From a virus: 33,470 nt of DNA. The notes below the pieces were generated by a model that saw only the letters and a program-made list of their open reading frames with translations, was not told the origin of the DNA and searched no databases. This document shows, in pieces, positions 26,794 to 33,470 of the stretch (positions are counted from its first letter, which is position 1; each line of letters opens with the position of its first letter). The stretch lies in the IMG/VR virus record IMGVR_UViG_3300034111_000748, positions 1 through 33,470 of that record; one strand, 5' to 3'. A program made the translations under genes and the position numbers.

Positions 26794-28575
26794 TCAGGTT
26801 CCCATCGCGGCGGCGAACGATCCGCCGCGCATCCTGGCGTCCGCCACCGCATCGACGGTCTGGCGCTTGATCGCCGGCATAAGCGCGGCGATCTCGGCGC
26901 GCACGGTCTGCGCGACGCCGACGCTGATCTGGATCGTCTGGTTGACCACGGTGCCGCCGGTTTGTCCGTTCGGGACGATGCGGCCAGACTGACCGGGCAT
27001 GAACAGTTCCGGCCCCTGCTCACCGACCAGATAGGCGCTGCCCGCCTCGACCGGCCCGCCGAGAGCGCGAGGCCCGCCGAATGGAATGCTGGTCGAGCCG
27101 CCCGGTCCTCTGATGTCGCCTGGCCCGCCGCCGATCAGCCCGCCGAAGGCGCTGGAGAGCCCGCCCATGACGAGGTTCGCGAGCGGCGTCGTGACCGTCT
27201 GGCGCAGGATGATGCGCGCGATGTCCTGAGCGATCCCGGCCAACACGCCGCGCAGCTTCTCGCCGCGCAGGATCGCGTCCTCGAAAGCTGACTGAAACGA
27301 TAGGCCGAGATCGCGCGCGAGGTTCTCGTTCTGCCGCGACTGCTTCTCGATGCCGGTCAGGTATTCGGTCTGTTTCTCTGTGGCCTTGCGGAACGCCTCG
27401 TCCGACATCGCGACCAGTTCGTTGTACCGTTCCTGACTGATGATCGCCGCGTCGAGCGCCTGGGCCAGCAGCGCCTGCTGATCGGCCCAGCGGCGGGTCG
27501 CGGCGGTCAGCGGGTCGAGGGTGTTTTCTAGGGACATGACATCGGAGAGGAAGCGCTGGCGCGCACGCTCGGCCTCTTCCTGCGCGCGAGCGGCGTCACG
27601 GATGGCCTCGGCTTCGCGCTTCTTCTGCTCCTCGAACTCCTCGCCGCTTCGCTTCAAGTTGGCGGTACTCATGTCCACTTGCTCTTGTTCCTCAACGAGC
27701 CGATCATGTTCTCGGATCAGCTTATTGATGGCGTCGATCTGCGACTGAATGGCCGCGACGTTTGCCGCCGCTTGAGCCTCGACTATTCCTGACATCTCGC
27801 TCGACGCCGCTGCGCCGCCGCCTGTAGTCATCATGCTGGACAGGCGATTGCGCTCGGCCATCAAGCCTTCAAGCCGCACATTCGCGCGAATGCCGGTCTG
27901 TCCTCTTCCGCGCCTCGCGCTCTCCTCGCTCATGCGCTTGATCTCTTCCGTCAAGGCAGAGACCTCATCGGTCGCGGCCTTCGCATTCTCGGCCATCTTG
28001 TCGAACATCATGTAGATGCCGCCGCCGATGGCGAGTGCGGCTCCGGCGATTGCGCCGAACGCCCCGAAGATGCCGAGGAACTGTGAGCCCTGCTGGATGA
28101 ACGCGACCATCGCAGACTGACCGCTCGCGACTTGGACGGCGAAGTCACCCAGCTGATAGCCGGACTGTTGCGCGACGAAGCCGAACTGTCTGCTCGACGT
28201 CGCAGCCGCCGCAGTCGCCGCTCCCATCGCCGCCGTCGCCGTCGCGGCGGACATGTACCGCTGCTGAGCAAGGCTGATGATCTGCGCGCCGCGCTCCTGC
28301 GAGATGCGCCCGCGCTCCATCGCGGAGTTGACGCGATCCACGATCTGCTCGTAACGCAGCTGCGAGGCGAAGCCCTTGTCGAGCGATGCCTGGAGGCGAT
28401 CCATGCTGGACGAAGACGAGACCAGCGAGCGGGTCATCTTCTCCTGAGACTGCTCGACCAGGCCGCTGCTCGCGGAGATCTCGGTGTTCGCCCGATCGAT
28501 CTCCTGTGCGCCGCGCGTGTATTCGCTCGCGTCGAGGCCAGCCTTGAGGATCGATTCCTTCGGCGCGTTGATCAT
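26794..28575 (-). CDS. Tail tape measure protein
   Basis: 593 residues, starting with ATGA overlap after the frameshifted chaperone. It has long helical coiled-coil parts, many Gln/Glu/Arg, one hydrophobic stretch ('FLGIFGAFGAIAGAALAIGGGIYMMF') and a Gly/Pro-rich C-terminal part ('GGGPGDIRGPGGSTSIPFGG'). This is the standard layout of tape measure proteins. At the roughly 0.15 nm per residue scale of lambda, it would predict a tail near 90 nm; this is an estimate. It would be bound by the two chaperones encoded just upstream and enters the host with the DNA. Confidence 0.92.
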   Translation of the reverse strand: MINAPKESILKAGLDASEYTRGAQEIDRANTEISASSGLVEQSQEKMTRSLVSSSSSMDRLQASLDKGFASQLRYEQIVDRVNSAMERGRISQERGAQIISLAQQRYMSAATATAAMGAATAAAATSSRQFGFVAQQSGYQLGDFAVQVASGQSAMVAFIQQGSQFLGIFGAFGAIAGAALAIGGGIYMMFDKMAENAKAATDEVSALTEEIKRMSEESARRGRGQTGIRANVRLEGLMAERNRLSSMMTTGGGAAASSEMSGIVEAQAAANVAAIQSQIDAINKLIREHDRLVEEQEQVDMSTANLKRSGEEFEEQKKREAEAIRDAARAQEEAERARQRFLSDVMSLENTLDPLTAATRRWADQQALLAQALDAAIISQERYNELVAMSDEAFRKATEKQTEYLTGIEKQSRQNENLARDLGLSFQSAFEDAILRGEKLRGVLAGIAQDIARIILRQTVTTPLANLVMGGLSSAFGGLIGGGPGDIRGPGGSTSIPFGGPRALGGPVEAGSAYLVGEQGPELFMPGQSGRIVPNGQTGGTVVNQTIQISVGVAQTVRAEIAALMPAIKRQTVDAVADARMRGGSFAAAMGT

Positions 28576-29329
28576 TTCTTCCCCTCGATCTCGCCGCGCA
28601 CGGCGAAGAACTCGCGATCTATCCGCATCAGAAGCGACACCTCGTCAGGCCGCATCTCCGCGCCGGTCAGCCTCGACCATGCGTCGAGATCGGCCCAGGA
28701 CAGCGGCTCGGCACCGTTGAAGCCGACGCGGCGACCTTGGTGCAGATCCAGCCACGCCGACCATATGTGTTCGCCCCACGCGGGCAACGGTGGCCCGTCG
28801 AGGCCCGCAGGGCGGCGTCCCAGCTGCCGCGCGACACTCTCCAGGTGGTCGCGCTTGCGACCGCCCTTGCGCGGCAGGTCGAGGTCGAAACGGTGACGCG
28901 CGAAGGCGATCAGTTCGCCGTCGCGCTCAGCCAGTTTCCCAGGTCGCCGATATGCTCCTCGACCTGTCGGCGCACCCAAGCGAAGGTCGGATCGCTCATC
29001 AGTTCGCGCTTCGCCGCTTCGTCGCACTCGACGTCGAGCGGGTCGCCGGCCAGCGAATAGAGCCGCCAGCCGGTGATGAGCGCCACCAGCATCCCGACCT
29101 GTTCGGCCTCGATGTCGTCAGCGGTCAGCTTCGCCGCGCGACGGTCGAGGCGCGCGATGGCGGATGCGCGACGCTGCGCGCCAGCCTCGCGGCTGTCGAG
29201 CGACAGGCAGTCGATGTACGCCGGATCGCCATCGCGCGACAGAAGCGGCGGACGACCGGCGACGGGGATCGAGAGATAGCAGCGCGTCGGCTTGTCCACC
29301 GACGCGCCGAGACCAGAGAAACGCGACAT
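28572..29329 (-). CDS. Tail assembly chaperone, -1 frameshift product (gpGT-like)
   Basis: About 252 residues if ribosomes shift at 28940-28934: 132 residues of the G-like protein, then 120 residues in the -1 frame ending at the TGA at 28572. The extension reads 'LAERDGELIAFARHRFDLDLPRKGGRKRDHLESVARQLGRR' and then 'WGEHIWSAWLDLHQGRRVGFNGAEPLSWADLDAWSRLTG', typical of phage GT-type extensions. It has no start codon or ribosome site of its own near its beginning. Its stop overlaps the tape measure start. In lambda, a few percent shifting is needed for a functional tail; the same is expected here. Confidence 0.88.
28910..29329 (-). CDS. Tail assembly chaperone, unshifted product (gpG-like)
   Basis: 139 residues, start next to the tail tube stop. 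Helical with 'RRAAKLTADDIEAEQVGMLVALITGWRLYSLAGDPLDVECD' and 'KRELMSDPTFAWVRRQVEEHIGDLGNWLSATAN'. That matches the phage tail assembly chaperones of the lambda G position: between the tail tube and the tape measure, with a slippery site just before the stop. It would bind the tape measure and gather tail tube proteins around it. Confidence 0.87.
   Translation of the reverse strand: MSRFSGLGASVDKPTRCYLSIPVAGRPPLLSRDGDPAYIDCLSLDSREAGAQRRASAIARLDRRAAKLTADDIEAEQVGMLVALITGWRLYSLAGDPLDVECDEAAKRELMSDPTFAWVRRQVEEHIGDLGNWLSATAN
28934..28940 (-). promoter_or_regulatory. -1 ribosomal frameshift site (G-GGA-AAC)
   Basis: In the G-like reading frame the seven bases read G GGA AAC, an ideal X-XXY-YYZ slippery heptamer closely related to the GGGAAAG of lambda G/GT. 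The zero frame stops 22 bases downstream (28912-28910), and the -1 frame stays open for 120 codons, exactly to the tape measure gene. Confidence 0.9.
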
Positions 29330-29331
29330 GC

Positions 29332-30588
29332 TCAGGCCGCCGTGTCGTGGATTCTGATCGTGGTCGTGTCTCTGCCGGCGGCGCTGCCGGTGTAGCGCAG
29401 CGCTTGGAACGGCAGCGAGATCGTCTGACCATTCGCGCCGGACAGCGGCATGTCCGCGCCGCCGAGCTTGACGCGCGGGAGGTAGATGCAGATCGCATCG
29501 GCATTCGCCGCCGAGCCACTATCGACGCGCACGATCAGCTGAAGCTCGCTCTCGTTCAAAAACGCATTGAACAAGGCGAAATCTTCCACGAACGCCGACA
29601 CCGTGCCGGTGACATTCGCGCGACCGAGGAAGATCTCGGGCGCGATGTTCTGGTTGATGACCGCTTGCATTTCGGCCTCGAGATCGAGCGCGATATCGAT
29701 GCCGGTCACGATGCCGAGCGGCGACGAGCCAGCGTCTGGAGACAGGATCAGGCCGTTGGCCGAAGCGCACGCCGAGGTCGTCGTCGCGGCGGTCGGAGCG
29801 GTGAAGTAGGGCGCGCTGCCCGCCGAGAGCGACACCGCGTTGCGGCCCATGACAGGGATCTCCACCGTCGAGAGACCGGTGGCCGGGAGCGACAGCGAAT
29901 AGCCCGACACGCGGCATTCGGTGAAGAGGCGCGACAGATCCAAGTCCTCGCGATATTCCTCGATGCCGAACTTGCGCGCCGTGAAGCCCGAGGCCGGAAC
30001 GATGGTGGTCTTGCCGGGGCGCGACAGGTTGAACGAGGTATCCGCCACCGCATCGGTCGTCGGCGCGGGGCTGACGGTGACGGTGCGATTCGACGTTCCG
30101 CCGAAGCTGCGGATCACGAAATTGCGGTCGTTGTTCGCAGCCGTCGCGAGGCTCGTGAAGCGGATGATGTCACCGACGCGCAGACCGCTCGTCACCGGAT
30201 CGCCCGCCGTGAAGGTGAACGTCGAGGTCGAGCTGTCGCTGGTGACGCTGGTGAACTGCGTGTTCGACAGCGACAGCGACGAGACCGCCGCGTCGCGGTG
30301 CGCGGCGACCAAAAGCTCGAAATAGGTGCTCGGCGAAAGCTCGCCCGAGATCGCACCCTCGACGCGCCGCAGCCCGTGGCGGAAGTCCGCGATCTGCCGG
30401 TCGGTGCGGATCTCCTCGGACTGATAGCTGTCCTTGACCAGGTTGAGACTGGACGAGACCCGCCGCAGCACCTGACCGCCGGACGTGCCGGGGTCGGTCG
30501 CGGTGTTCGGCTCGCTGTTGGCCGTGATCGACCCGCTGGAATACGCCTTGTAGACGATGCGTGACTGCACGCCTTCGGAAATTGGCAT
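29332..30588 (-). CDS. Major tail tube protein
   Basis: 418 residues; AAGGAG site 7 bases before ATG. The opening 'MPISEGVQSRIVYKAYSSGSI' and the block 'SEEIRTDRQIADFRHGLRRVEGAISGELSP' are typical of a large family of phage tail tube proteins. A domain with 'GDIIRFTSLATAANNDRNFVIRSF' (about 140-190) is inserted, and the C-terminus is a beta-sandwich. It polymerises in stacked rings around the tape measure. Longer than lambda gpV, because of the insert and a decorated C-terminus. High expression is likely, as it has the strongest ribosome site in this block. Confidence 0.93.
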   Translation of the reverse strand: MPISEGVQSRIVYKAYSSGSITANSEPNTATDPGTSGGQVLRRVSSSLNLVKDSYQSEEIRTDRQIADFRHGLRRVEGAISGELSPSTYFELLVAAHRDAAVSSLSLSNTQFTSVTSDSSTSTFTFTAGDPVTSGLRVGDIIRFTSLATAANNDRNFVIRSFGGTSNRTVTVSPAPTTDAVADTSFNLSRPGKTTIVPASGFTARKFGIEEYREDLDLSRLFTECRVSGYSLSLPATGLSTVEIPVMGRNAVSLSAGSAPYFTAPTAATTTSACASANGLILSPDAGSSPLGIVTGIDIALDLEAEMQAVINQNIAPEIFLGRANVTGTVSAFVEDFALFNAFLNESELQLIVRVDSGSAANADAICIYLPRVKLGGADMPLSGANGQTISLPFQALRYTGSAAGRDTTTIRIHDTAA

Positions 30589-30599
30589 CTCGGGTCTCC

Positions 30600-31034
30600 T
30601 TACCCTTGGAACCTGTATTGGAACGGGATCGACGCGCCGCGACTATACCACGCGCCGTTCGAGCGTGAGGTGTCGGCTATGCCGACAATCGGACCTGTGA
30701 AGCTGAGATTGCCCGCGCGCCGCGCGCGAAGCGCCACGACGGCGGCGTCGAGGAGGTCGAGGGTGACATCCTCACCGATGCCAACCTCGCTGAACACGCG
30801 CACAGCGACCGCGCCGAACCAGAGCCGCTCGTTGGCGAGCGAGCCGCCGCCGAATGCGCGCATCTCCTCGCGACTGAACTCGGTGTGCAAATGCAGCCAG
30901 TGCTGCACCTCGCCCGGCGTCGGCGTGTCGGGATGCGCGTTTTCGTGCCAGATGACGCGATAGGTCTCGCCGTGCGACCACCGCGCATCCCAGACTGCCT
31001 TGATCTCGGCTCGGATGGTGGTGCGGAGGCTCAT
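30600..31034 (-). CDS. Tail terminator protein (stand-alone copy)
   Basis: 144 residues; start overlaps the fusion gene's stop (ATGA). 'LRTTIRAEIKAVWDARWSHGETYRVIWHENAHPDTPTPGEVQHWLHLHTEF', 'VAVRVFSEVGIGEDVTLDLLDAAVVALRAR' and 'FQYRF' at the end follow the lambda gpU-type layout. It is encoded directly before the tail tube gene, as expected for the ring that caps the tail and joins it to the head. It is clearly homologous to the C-terminal 142 residues of the preceding gene, so the phage has two versions of the domain. Confidence 0.85.
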   Translation of the reverse strand: MSLRTTIRAEIKAVWDARWSHGETYRVIWHENAHPDTPTPGEVQHWLHLHTEFSREEMRAFGGGSLANERLWFGAVAVRVFSEVGIGEDVTLDLLDAAVVALRARRAGNLSFTGPIVGIADTSRSNGAWYSRGASIPFQYRFQG

Positions 31035-32644
31035 GCCCGGTACTCATACGTCCAGGGCATCATCGTGCCACGGATGAACCACGCGCCGTCCTCGGTCGCG
31101 CTATCGAAGATCTCGGTGGAGCCCTCGATGAACGACAGCCCGGCCTCGCGGCGCGAGCGGTAGACACCGACCGCGTCATCGAGCAGGTCGAGCGCGGCGT
31201 CGTCACCGTAGCCGGTCTCGGCGATCACTCGGATTTCCACCGTCCCGCGCCACTCGCGGTCGGACGCCTCGCGACCGCCGGCATAGGCGTGCACATCCTC
31301 GCCGTCGAAGTCCACCATGACATGCACCCACGCGCGCGCCTCGCCGGGCTCAGGGACGCTCTCGTTGTCGTTGACCTGCCAGAGTACCCGGTAGGTCGTT
31401 CCATGCGGCCAGCGGGCATCCCAGGCGCTCCTGATGGCATCGCGGATGACGCGCAGCGTGCCGGGAGGCGCGATAAGTTGGATGCGCGGCGGGATGCCGC
31501 CGATGGCGATGGCCGCTGCGGCGACCTCGATGGCCTTGCCCGCCGCGAGCGTCGGAGACGCGGCGGTGAGCGTGATGGTGGCGACCGGGACGGCGATGCT
31601 CTTGCCCGCCGCCAGTTGCGGCGCGAGCGCCGCGAGAACCTGAGCCGAGGCGAGCGGGACGGCGATGCTCTTGCCCGCCGAGATCGCCGGCGCTTCGCCG
31701 CCGAGGAGGATGGTGGCGGCGGGAACATCCACGCTGATGCCGGAAGCCGCCTGGATGGTCGGTGGTGCGGCAGAGAGCGCGACGGTGGCCGAGGGTGCCG
31801 CGACGCTCTTTCCGCTCGCCACGGACGGGGAAATCGCCGCCAGCGTGATCGCGGCGGCGGGAACGGTGATGGCGTCGCCGACCGAGACGGTCGGGGCAGA
31901 TGCCGAAAGCGTGATGTTCGCCGCCGGAACCGCGACACGCTTGCCCGCGCTGATCGACGGGGCGCTCGCCGCGAGGCTGATCGTCGCAGCTGGAACGGTG
32001 ACGGACTTGCCCGTCCTGATCGCAGGAACCTCGCCACCCATGAGCAGGGCGGCGGTGGGAACGGTGACGACCTTGCCCGCCGAGATCGTCGGCGCGCTGG
32101 CGGCGAGGCTGATCGTCGCGGCGGGAACGGTAACCGTTGCGCCAGTCGAGGTCTGGATGGTTGGCGCGTTGGCAGCGATAGTGATGGTCGCTGCGGGCGC
32201 GAGGATGTTGACCGCCGCCGCGCCGTAGAGGTTGGCGAAGAGGAACAGCAGCCCCTGAATGCCGGTGCCAGTTTGGACTTCTGGCGCAGATGCTGCGATC
32301 TGGATTGATGCCGATGGGACAGATACCGATTTCCCCGCGCCTAGTGCTGGAGCAGTAGCGGCGATGGAGATCGTAGCGGCGGGGACGGCGATGCTCTTAC
32401 CCGCCGAGATGCTCGGGGCGTTGCCTAAAATTGCAATCGCCGCAGCAGGAACGACGACTCTTTTGCCCGCTGAAATGCTCGGGGCGTTCGCTGAAAGCGT
32501 GATGGCGACAGCGGGAGCGATGACGCTCTTGCCCGACGCAATTGTGGGTGAGATAGCCGCAAGGCTGATTGTGGCGGCTGGAACAGATACTTGCGTCGGC
32601 GGCTGAAATAGGACCGAGACACCAGGAACCCTCACCCGCAGCAT
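31031..32644 (-). CDS. Repeat protein fused to a tail-terminator domain
   Basis: 537 residues. Residues 18-388 are about 16 copies of a 22-residue repeat (consensus like 'SVxVPAATIxLAAxAPxIxAGK'), with one 17-residue hydrophobic insert (residues about 127-143, 'GIQGLLFLFANLYGAAA') after the fifth. Residues 396-537 are a gpU-like domain: 'IRDAIRSAWDARWPHGTTYRVLWQ', 'VEIRVIAETGYGDDAALDLLDDAVGVY', 'WTYEYRA', parallel to the next gene from end to end. The repeat has two short strands and a turn per unit, suggesting a beta-solenoid or fibrous rod. VPAA-type repeats are known in other phage proteins but have no assigned function. It probably places a rod at the neck of the virion. Confidence 0.88.
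   Translation of the reverse strand: MLRVRVPGVSVLFQPPTQVSVPAATISLAAISPTIASGKSVIAPAVAITLSANAPSISAGKRVVVPAAAIAILGNAPSISAGKSIAVPAATISIAATAPALGAGKSVSVPSASIQIAASAPEVQTGTGIQGLLFLFANLYGAAAVNILAPAATITIAANAPTIQTSTGATVTVPAATISLAASAPTISAGKVVTVPTAALLMGGEVPAIRTGKSVTVPAATISLAASAPSISAGKRVAVPAANITLSASAPTVSVGDAITVPAAAITLAAISPSVASGKSVAAPSATVALSAAPPTIQAASGISVDVPAATILLGGEAPAISAGKSIAVPLASAQVLAALAPQLAAGKSIAVPVATITLTAASPTLAAGKAIEVAAAAIAIGGIPPRIQLIAPPGTLRVIRDAIRSAWDARWPHGTTYRVLWQVNDNESVPEPGEARAWVHVMVDFDGEDVHAYAGGREASDREWRGTVEIRVIAETGYGDDAALDLLDDAVGVYRSRREAGLSFIEGSTEIFDSATEDGAWFIRGTMMPWTYEYRA
31481..32593 (-). repeat. 66-bp coding tandem repeat array (22 residues x 16)
   Basis: The array encodes the repeat part of the fusion protein. 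Repeats differ at DNA level, but some are nearly identical: GCGAGGCTGATCGTCGC is found at 31971-31987 and again at 32103-32119, exactly two units (132 bases) apart. This suggests recent unit duplication and a potential for length change by recombination. Confidence 0.85.
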
Positions 32645-32645
32645 G

Positions 32646-33407
32646 TCAGTCCCCGATCAGCGGCGGGCGGTTGGCGAACGGATGGTCAGCTGCGAGGGGG
32701 ATAGCCCATTTCCAAGCCATATACCCTTCGATGACCTGTCTTTGAGCGTCCGAAGCGGCAAAAGGGTAGACTAAAACCTCGCCCAGTTCACCGCCGCCCC
32801 AAGTGTCGTAAGGAGGATGACCAAATCTTGTGACGGTGGACCCCGACCAAGTCAACGAATATGACGTAACCGAAGATCCGTTTCCGGCTGTCAATATTTG
32901 AGTGCTTGAAATTGATGAGTAAAAAATATTCCAACTGTCTGGCTTAAATCGATACCCAGCCCTGCCCGTGCCGCCAAACTCAGATTGAAGATATACCTCG
33001 CTTGCTCCCGTGAACGATGTCCTCATCGGAATGTAGGTTATTTCGCTGTTGCTGCCATTCAAATTGCTCCAAAGCCTTTTGTTCGTTCCAGCTAAAGCAG
33101 ATTTAAAAACTGCAATGTTTGTTTGCTCTGTATATGTTTTTGAAAAAGCCGCAGTTACTGTTGGAGTTGAGGCATAAGCAATTGAATTAAATCCGTTTTG
33201 TGATTCAATTTTTAGCGTAGGAGCGGTGCTTGTCGGAGACAGATTCAGCCCATTGCCGCTCTTGTCACGCCACTCCGAAACGCCCGTTGCGACCGTGATC
33301 GTGCTGAGATCCGAAGCGTCAAACCAAGCGTCAGGACGCAGGACCTCCGGCGTCCACAGCCGCCCCTGCCCCCGCGCGCTATCGTATTCGGACAGCCCGC
33401 GCGGCAT
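32646..33407 (-). CDS. LamG/jelly-roll-like protein, lower GC
   Basis: 253 residues; TGATG overlap at the start. 'RPDAWFDASDLSTITVATGVSEWRDKSGNGLNLSPT' at the start and 'GELGEVLVYPFAASDAQRQVIEGYMAWKWAIPLAADHPFANRPP' at the end are features of a concanavalin/LamG-like jelly-roll family found in phage structural genes. Such domains often bind sugars. The middle of the gene (about 32,860-33,240) is much richer in A and T than its surroundings, a sign of transfer. Position between head and tail genes suggests a neck or virion surface protein. Confidence 0.82.
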   Translation of the reverse strand: MPRGLSEYDSARGQGRLWTPEVLRPDAWFDASDLSTITVATGVSEWRDKSGNGLNLSPTSTAPTLKIESQNGFNSIAYASTPTVTAAFSKTYTEQTNIAVFKSALAGTNKRLWSNLNGSNSEITYIPMRTSFTGASEVYLQSEFGGTGRAGYRFKPDSWNIFYSSISSTQILTAGNGSSVTSYSLTWSGSTVTRFGHPPYDTWGGGELGEVLVYPFAASDAQRQVIEGYMAWKWAIPLAADHPFANRPPLIGD

Positions 33408-33470
33408 CAGACCGCTTCTTCGTTCCAGGGGCGGACGTAAAGTTCGTTGCTGCTTGACGCCAGCGTCACG
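33407..33470 (-). CDS. 3' end of an unidentified gene (5' part outside window)
   Basis: Only the last 20 codons and stop are visible, ending '...SSSNELYVRPWNEEAV'; the TGA overlaps the next ATG (TGATG), which supports a real coding end. Another frame of the same stretch also stays open into the LamG gene, so the frame choice rests on the stop overlap. Product not identified. By position it is a head-completion, neck or surface protein. Confidence 0.5.
   Translation of the reverse strand, partial: VTLASSSNELYVRPWNEEAV

Follow-up and report, generated by a model that had tools for sequence, protein, structure and literature searches.

The gene at positions 31031..32644 (minus strand) of the window, as we call the whole 33,470-nucleotide stretch of viral DNA analyzed here, encodes a 537-aa protein (45 relatives in the protein scan) that joins a leader and 16 repeats of 22 residues to a second tail-terminator domain. 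We consider it somewhat probable that this protein is an accessory virion appendage, in which the duplicated terminator anchors outward repeat rods at the neck of the phage.

Tail terminators form a hexameric ring that stops growth of the tail tube and docks the head. Under the favored explanation, the diverged second terminator domain would be the anchor, forming or joining a hexameric ring at the end of the tail nearest the head, and the fused ring would lie on or beside the ordinary one. The beta-rich repeats would extend outward from the neck and form rods or whiskers, with a length altered through gain and loss of units, and the exchangeable N-terminal module would occupy the free end, probably binding other cassette products (lectin-like or propeller-like) or the cell surface. 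The repeats are placed outside the ring because six 390-residue arms would hardly fit the channel through which the DNA passes. A conserved C-terminal domain, exchanged leaders, and variable length would suit a rod that is anchored at one end and variable at the other, free end. Since similar arms are found beside different fastening proteins elsewhere, the fusion appears to be a novel means of attaching an appendage of a familiar type. We infer its presence in virions, hexameric state, neck position, outward direction, and adhesive role; it would be a new variant of the neck appendage and not a new kind of system. More tentatively, the fused proteins may build a second, dedicated terminator ring bearing six covalent, length-variable beta-repeat whiskers, the duplicated cap serving as the mount for a mobile fiber cassette. 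A literature search, with most subscription literature outside its reach, found no published terminator-fiber fusion.

Parts of the fused gene and its terminator domain

The open reading frame exists on the minus strand only, where it runs for 537 codons from 32644 to 31031; the plus-strand reading is interrupted by stops. Comparison with relatives delimits an N-terminal leader (residues 1-20, MLRVRVPG...; 32585..32644), whereas periodicity and alignment define a first repeat block of five units (residues 21-126; 32267..32584) and a second of eleven (residues 149-392; 31469..32200). The blocks flank a hydrophobic segment, GIQGLLFLFANLYGAAAVNIL (about residues 127-148; 32201..32266), which forms an N-terminal module in relatives, and the protein ends in the second terminator domain, with a predicted gpU fold (residues 393-537; 31034..31468). 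The neighboring genes are also on the minus strand. An ATGA at 31031..31034 combines the stop of the fused gene with the start of the stand-alone tail terminator (144 aa; 30600..31034), an overlap that suggests translational coupling. The stand-alone terminator gene is directly upstream of the tail tube gene (418 aa; 29332..30588; Pfam Phage_tube_2, E 1.3e-23), and the fused copy lies one gene further upstream. On its other side, the cassette gene at 32646..33470, open at the window end and with its first ATG at 33407, encodes a virion structural protein (PHROG 10356, E 1.7e-18) that is lectin-like by eye and has no Pfam match.

The first-pass annotation had described the C-terminal domain as a paralogue of the downstream terminator, with two motifs common to both. 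Residues 393-537 indeed align to the 144-aa protein without gaps, with 43% identity and a Smith-Waterman score of 339, compared with 31.5 +/- 5.5 (maximum, 57) for shuffled sequences, and the motifs AxWDARWxHGxTYRVxW and DxxLDLLDxAVxxxR occur in both copies. The PHROG 179 "tail terminator" profile recognizes the fused protein (E 2.4e-6) and the stand-alone copy (E 2.8e-7). Pfam gave no match above cut-off for either copy, and a PDB sequence search with the terminator profile returned chance matches only.

Fold comparisons point in the same direction. A full-length AlphaFold model of the fused protein, of low confidence (mean pLDDT of 41.6), had terminators as its best PDB matches (HFTV1, SPP1 gp17, NF5, and lambda gpU; E 0.1-1); its weak beta-solenoid matches were discarded, as the model is too poor across the repeat part. 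A second model, also of low confidence (mean pLDDT of 47.1), was built for the last four repeats and the terminator domain from 39 aligned sequences. Its element order is helix-strand-strand-strand-helix-hairpin-strand, with the four-stranded sheet, two helices, and hairpin after helix 2 of the gpU fold, and the same secondary-structure order has been described for the T5 p142 terminator (PMC11784142). Foldseek searches of the PDB with this model gave 26 matches at E<=1e-3, essentially all of them terminators or their neck, collar, or pyocin equivalents, including lambda gpU (8iyd/3fzb), T1 (9l0e), R4C (8gtf), XM1 (7kjk), pyocin R2 (6u5j), E217, PhiTE, and Pa193. In the BFVD, 244 models matched at E<=1e-3, and the named ones were mostly tail terminator or tail completion proteins. 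Because sequence profile, fold search, and gene position agree, the terminator assignment is safe despite the weak models, and the C-terminal domain is a gpU-type tail terminator. Thus, the gpU-type relationship, which the first-pass annotation had named as one point on which its reading could fail, is upheld by the PHROG 179 profile and the fold search.

The relationship between the two copies also bears on an unlikely alternative, in which fused and plain terminators would share mixed hexamers within one ring, giving zero to six rods per virion in a ratio set by the ATGA-coupled genes, with no second ring. The tight overlap recurs in 43 of 43 junctions checked among relatives, and the 43% identity, the fairly conserved helices (53-58%), and the 83% identical alpha1-beta1 loop would suit such a scheme; 936 phages, whose major tail protein has a frameshift-extended form, also offer a precedent for substoichiometric decorated subunits (PMC6669499). 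However, 43% identity together with a single old duplication and a long separating branch suggests distinct interfaces; identity falls to 26% in the hairpin that precedes the last strand, and the two copies differ in net charge (-12 versus -1). Per-segment identity proved indecisive as a guide to which surfaces are kept.

Repeats, leaders and conservation of the fusion

The repeat count of the first-pass annotation, 16 copies of 22 residues, was recovered. Over residues 21-392, the top period was 22, with an identity of 0.337 at lag 22 (and 0.284 at lag 44), compared with 0.215 as the maximum over all lags in 2000 shuffles. The units start at residues 21, 43, 65, 87, 109, 149, 173, 195, 217, 239, 261, 283, 307, 329, 352, and 374, with a spacing of 22 save for steps of 24, 24, and 23 and a single 40-residue step containing GIQGLLFLFANLYGAAAVNIL. 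The region is rich in Ala, Ser, Ile, Val, Pro, and Thr and is predicted to form short strands. No solved structure related to the repeat fold was found, and no receptor-binding or carbohydrate-binding domain exceeded the Pfam cut-off in the fused protein. From the usual geometry of such folds, the 16 units would measure about 8 nm if each were a single beta-solenoid turn, and about 20 nm or more if each were a repeat of a trimeric beta-spiral. Across relatives, the number of repeats ranges from about 8 to 18, differing about twofold between close ones, whereas the terminator domain is nearly constant. A 66-base repeat is still detectable in the DNA at 31940-32131 and 32385-32542 (66-72% matches), which is consistent with gain and loss of units through recombination.

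The hydrophobic stretch had been seen as one interruption of the repeats. It is present within the 40-residue step, but it is not a one-off, since most relatives carry it at the N-terminus or after a single repeat, compared with the five repeats that precede it here. Judged from the relatives, the segment is an N-terminal module and not an interruption, and a membrane span, which was also considered, was dropped in favor of this assignment. Additionally, three leader types (MLRxRxPG, MLGSAPLAxxPLG, and MPQLQGLTLLFG) are swapped among relatives, the window's gene having the MLRxRxPG type. The fused protein has the repeat pattern [VA]PAAxIxLxxxAPxxxxGKxV and N-terminal modules in common with the 22-residue-repeat cassette, and its N-terminal motifs are common to metagenomic proteins with such repeats. 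The modules xPLAxxPLG and QGLxFLFxxL are likewise common to repeat proteins of other phages that have no terminator domain, a point in favor of a quite improbable reading in which the N-terminal end is the virion anchor of a distal tail or capsid fiber and the terminator domain serves as an oligomerization module or tip. Gene position alone is no proof of location, and this reading can draw on that as well. Nevertheless, within the clade it is the terminator domain that is conserved and the N-terminal modules that are exchanged, and the fused gene immediately precedes the terminator and tube genes.

The relatives came from IMG/VR scans (with the fused protein and with the terminator alignment) and from genome contigs, which together gave 57 related contigs besides the window. 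Both terminator copies occur in the same order in 54 of the 57, and the other three (L036/L074, L048, and L076) are cut by the contig end. In these contigs, the repeat-terminator fusion is a conserved feature of the whole phage clade. A tree separates fused from stand-alone copies completely (one change; support, 97/100), and consequently a single duplication predates the clade; the root is not reliably placed, because the sole outgroup row is very long. With mean dN/dS values of 0.12 (fused domain) and 0.11 (stand-alone copy), compared with 0.45 across the last four repeats, both domains are under purifying selection, which suggests that both copies are in use.

These rates are also relevant to a stacked second ring of mainly structural function, in which the fused terminator would be an obligatory connector ring and the repeats a neck-reinforcing sleeve and not a free fiber. 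In contractile tails, tube and sheath may each have a terminator of their own. Duplication of a terminator domain is known in PVC16 (PMC11784142), a collar sleeve is known in Milano (PMC10491603), and purifying selection on the fused domain would be expected of such a ring. On the contrary, a roughly twofold difference in repeat number among close relatives is unlike a sleeve of fixed geometry, the repeats evolve faster than the domain (0.45 versus 0.12), and related phages manage without the fused copy. We therefore regard the structural ring as improbable and retain the appendage reading.

No isolate relative of the fusion emerged from a tblastn search of 50,697 isolate phage records, in which neither the fused nor the stand-alone protein had a match. 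One of the 57 contigs (L077 / G006:C42) belongs to the MAG "Proteobacteria bacterium UBA964"; it has the structural module of the clade, is possibly a mis-binned phage, and gives the only hint of a host. Terminator and repeat profiles run against 369 genomes of the class of this MAG matched that contig only; a weak second match in the class (G133) was rejected as a tape-measure-like coiled-coil protein.

A cassette beside the neck genes and its counterparts in other phages

In two long relatives, G001 and G003, the gene order runs from terminase, portal, protease, capsid, and small genes through a head-tail adaptor (PHROG 442), a 132-aa protein, head closure (PHROG 161), and a 223-aa protein (PHROG 16336) to the cassette, the early head genes being assigned, by sequence only, from the same region of the window. 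The cassette comprises a PHROG 644 protein (143 aa), proteins of 145 aa, 479-536 aa (weak kelch matches), 174 aa, and 137 aa, and the lectin-like protein, after which come the fused gene, terminator, tube, chaperones, and tape measure. The PHROG 644 partner is present in G003; the corresponding stretch of the window's phage lies beyond the window end. In the window, a frame at 28910-29329 (weak PHROG 313 match) overlaps one at 28572-29027 (Pfam Phage_TAC_18, E 1e-16), both on the minus strand, and these two tail-assembly-chaperone frames (28572-29329) may be joined by a programmed frameshift.

In the Bradyrhizobium prophage ppBdUSDA122-1, the PHROG 16336 gene is followed by a single 151-aa terminator and then the tube gene, with no cassette, and the A1 profile recognizes this terminator (E 1e-7 in a 7-sequence test set). 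Limnohabitans phage DC31, Caulobacter phage DMCA, and Curvibacter phage P26059A likewise have one PHROG 179 terminator ahead of the tube, in P26059A with an endonuclease gene between the two. Compared with these single-terminator phages, the cassette lies after the PHROG 16336 gene and before the terminator, and a duplicate terminator is joined to the last gene of the cassette.

A profile of the repeat found further phages with repeat proteins devoid of the terminator domain. In L107, L114, and L130, the gene after the repeat gene encodes BppU_N (each match above the Pfam cut-off); its counterpart encodes a podophage GP4 fiber-tail adaptor of family Gp77 in L118 (E 1e-15) and an SU10 adaptor in L124 (E 4e-24), so that different proteins appear to act as the anchor. 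An appendage role is argued mainly from this recurring adjacency of rod genes to attachment or adaptor genes, which is guilt by association. In Gordonia phages Gibbles and Kampe, gp37 and gp39, respectively, carry 22-residue-type repeats and are annotated as minor tail proteins; each directly follows a gene of the same size, which in Gibbles is PHROG 644. Several of the terminator-free repeat phages have a lectin-like (Laminin_G_3) or propeller-like protein inside the cassette, and in the L116 cassette, an MptE-like gene (PF01973; 2437-3207) separates the PHROG 644-like gene from the repeat gene. In L116 (between portal-side and scaffold genes) and in the Gordonia phages (beside lysin genes), the cassette lies away from the neck genes, and thus the repeat alone is no proof of a neck location.

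PHROG 644 itself (MAVTISLYNHTAKLF... at L082 1467-1895) was found near the repeat cassette by eye in L107, L116, L120, L124, L128, and L130, at differing genome positions, and by profile in Gibbles and MiniFlayer. Its recurrence next to virion genes (repeat, lectin-like, or propeller-like) of different phages makes it a candidate marker for a mobile cassette of appendage genes.

Comparison with known terminators and neck appendages

The second terminator resembles lambda gpU, SPP1 gp17, and T5 p142 (PHROG 179) in fold, predicted element order, and profile, and in the neighborhood before the tube gene. It differs from them in being a second copy with an N-terminal repeat arm of about 390 residues; solved terminator chains among the matches listed have at most 284 residues. 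Terminators with extra domains are known (PMC11784142).

The neck passage structure of 936 phages consists of a BppU-like ring, a coiled coil, and a carbohydrate-binding tip (PMC6669499). The fused protein is like the lactococcal 936/P335 structure in that its gene is among head and neck genes and a variable fiber is borne on a presumed ring anchor, and BppU_N is present, as a separate gene after the repeat gene, in some of the other repeat phages. In contrast, the anchor here would be the C-terminal terminator domain, the fused protein having no Pfam BppU_N match, and the rod would be made of beta-rich repeats. The stalk is formed by 22-residue repeats predicted as short strands and not by the trimeric coiled coil of 936 and TP901-1. 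No carbohydrate-binding tip was found above cut-off in the fused protein, and its neighbor is lectin-like by PHROG 10356 and by eye only.

In the proposed role of neck fibers, the rods would be comparable to the neck fibers of cyanophage A-1(L), the whiskers of T4 and 812, and the collar spikes of XM1. The A-1(L) fibers sit on a gp5 pentadecamer (PMC10966104), and the putative whiskers of phage 812 lie near, and are probably attached to, stopper decoration proteins (PMC12886913). Fibers of these four phages are attached by separate collar or adaptor proteins, whereas the arm described here is covalently fused to a terminator. The nearest counterparts of the arm are Gibbles gp37, Kampe gp39, and the repeat proteins of many metagenomic phages, with the same repeat pattern and, in many, a PHROG 644 neighbor; these have no terminator domain, and the adjacent gene, where recognized, encodes a different attachment or adaptor protein. 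ORF28 of Alteromonas phage R7M, a proposed whisker protein, was rejected as an analogue, having PKD/Ig-like domains and neither such a repeat nor a terminator.

Neck fibers are known in several phages, and their fastening and evolution are poorly known. The sequences gathered here provide a natural comparison, in which the clade with the fusion can be set against a prophage relative that has one terminator and against unrelated phages in which different attachment genes adjoin the same rod; the rod looks like the mobile module and the anchor like the part that changes. If the appendage reading is true, the terminator ring, thought to be a simple cap, can be duplicated and serve as a platform, and deletion of one of the two terminator copies would offer a clean genetic handle on the function of neck appendages.

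Genes of the same kind are present in the satellite phage MiniFlayer (L145, OQ357865; 5186-9997), where gp6 is PHROG 644 (E 2e-44) and gp8, beside the tail-fiber gene, has Laminin_G_3 domains and its own short P(M/L)xGSGxxP repeats. These genes and the cassette genes of the window's relatives belong to one family of cassettes. The authors of the MiniFlayer study suggested the genes neighboring the tail-fiber region as an adsorption module, and MiniFlayer virions attach to the neck of their helper (PMC10690885).
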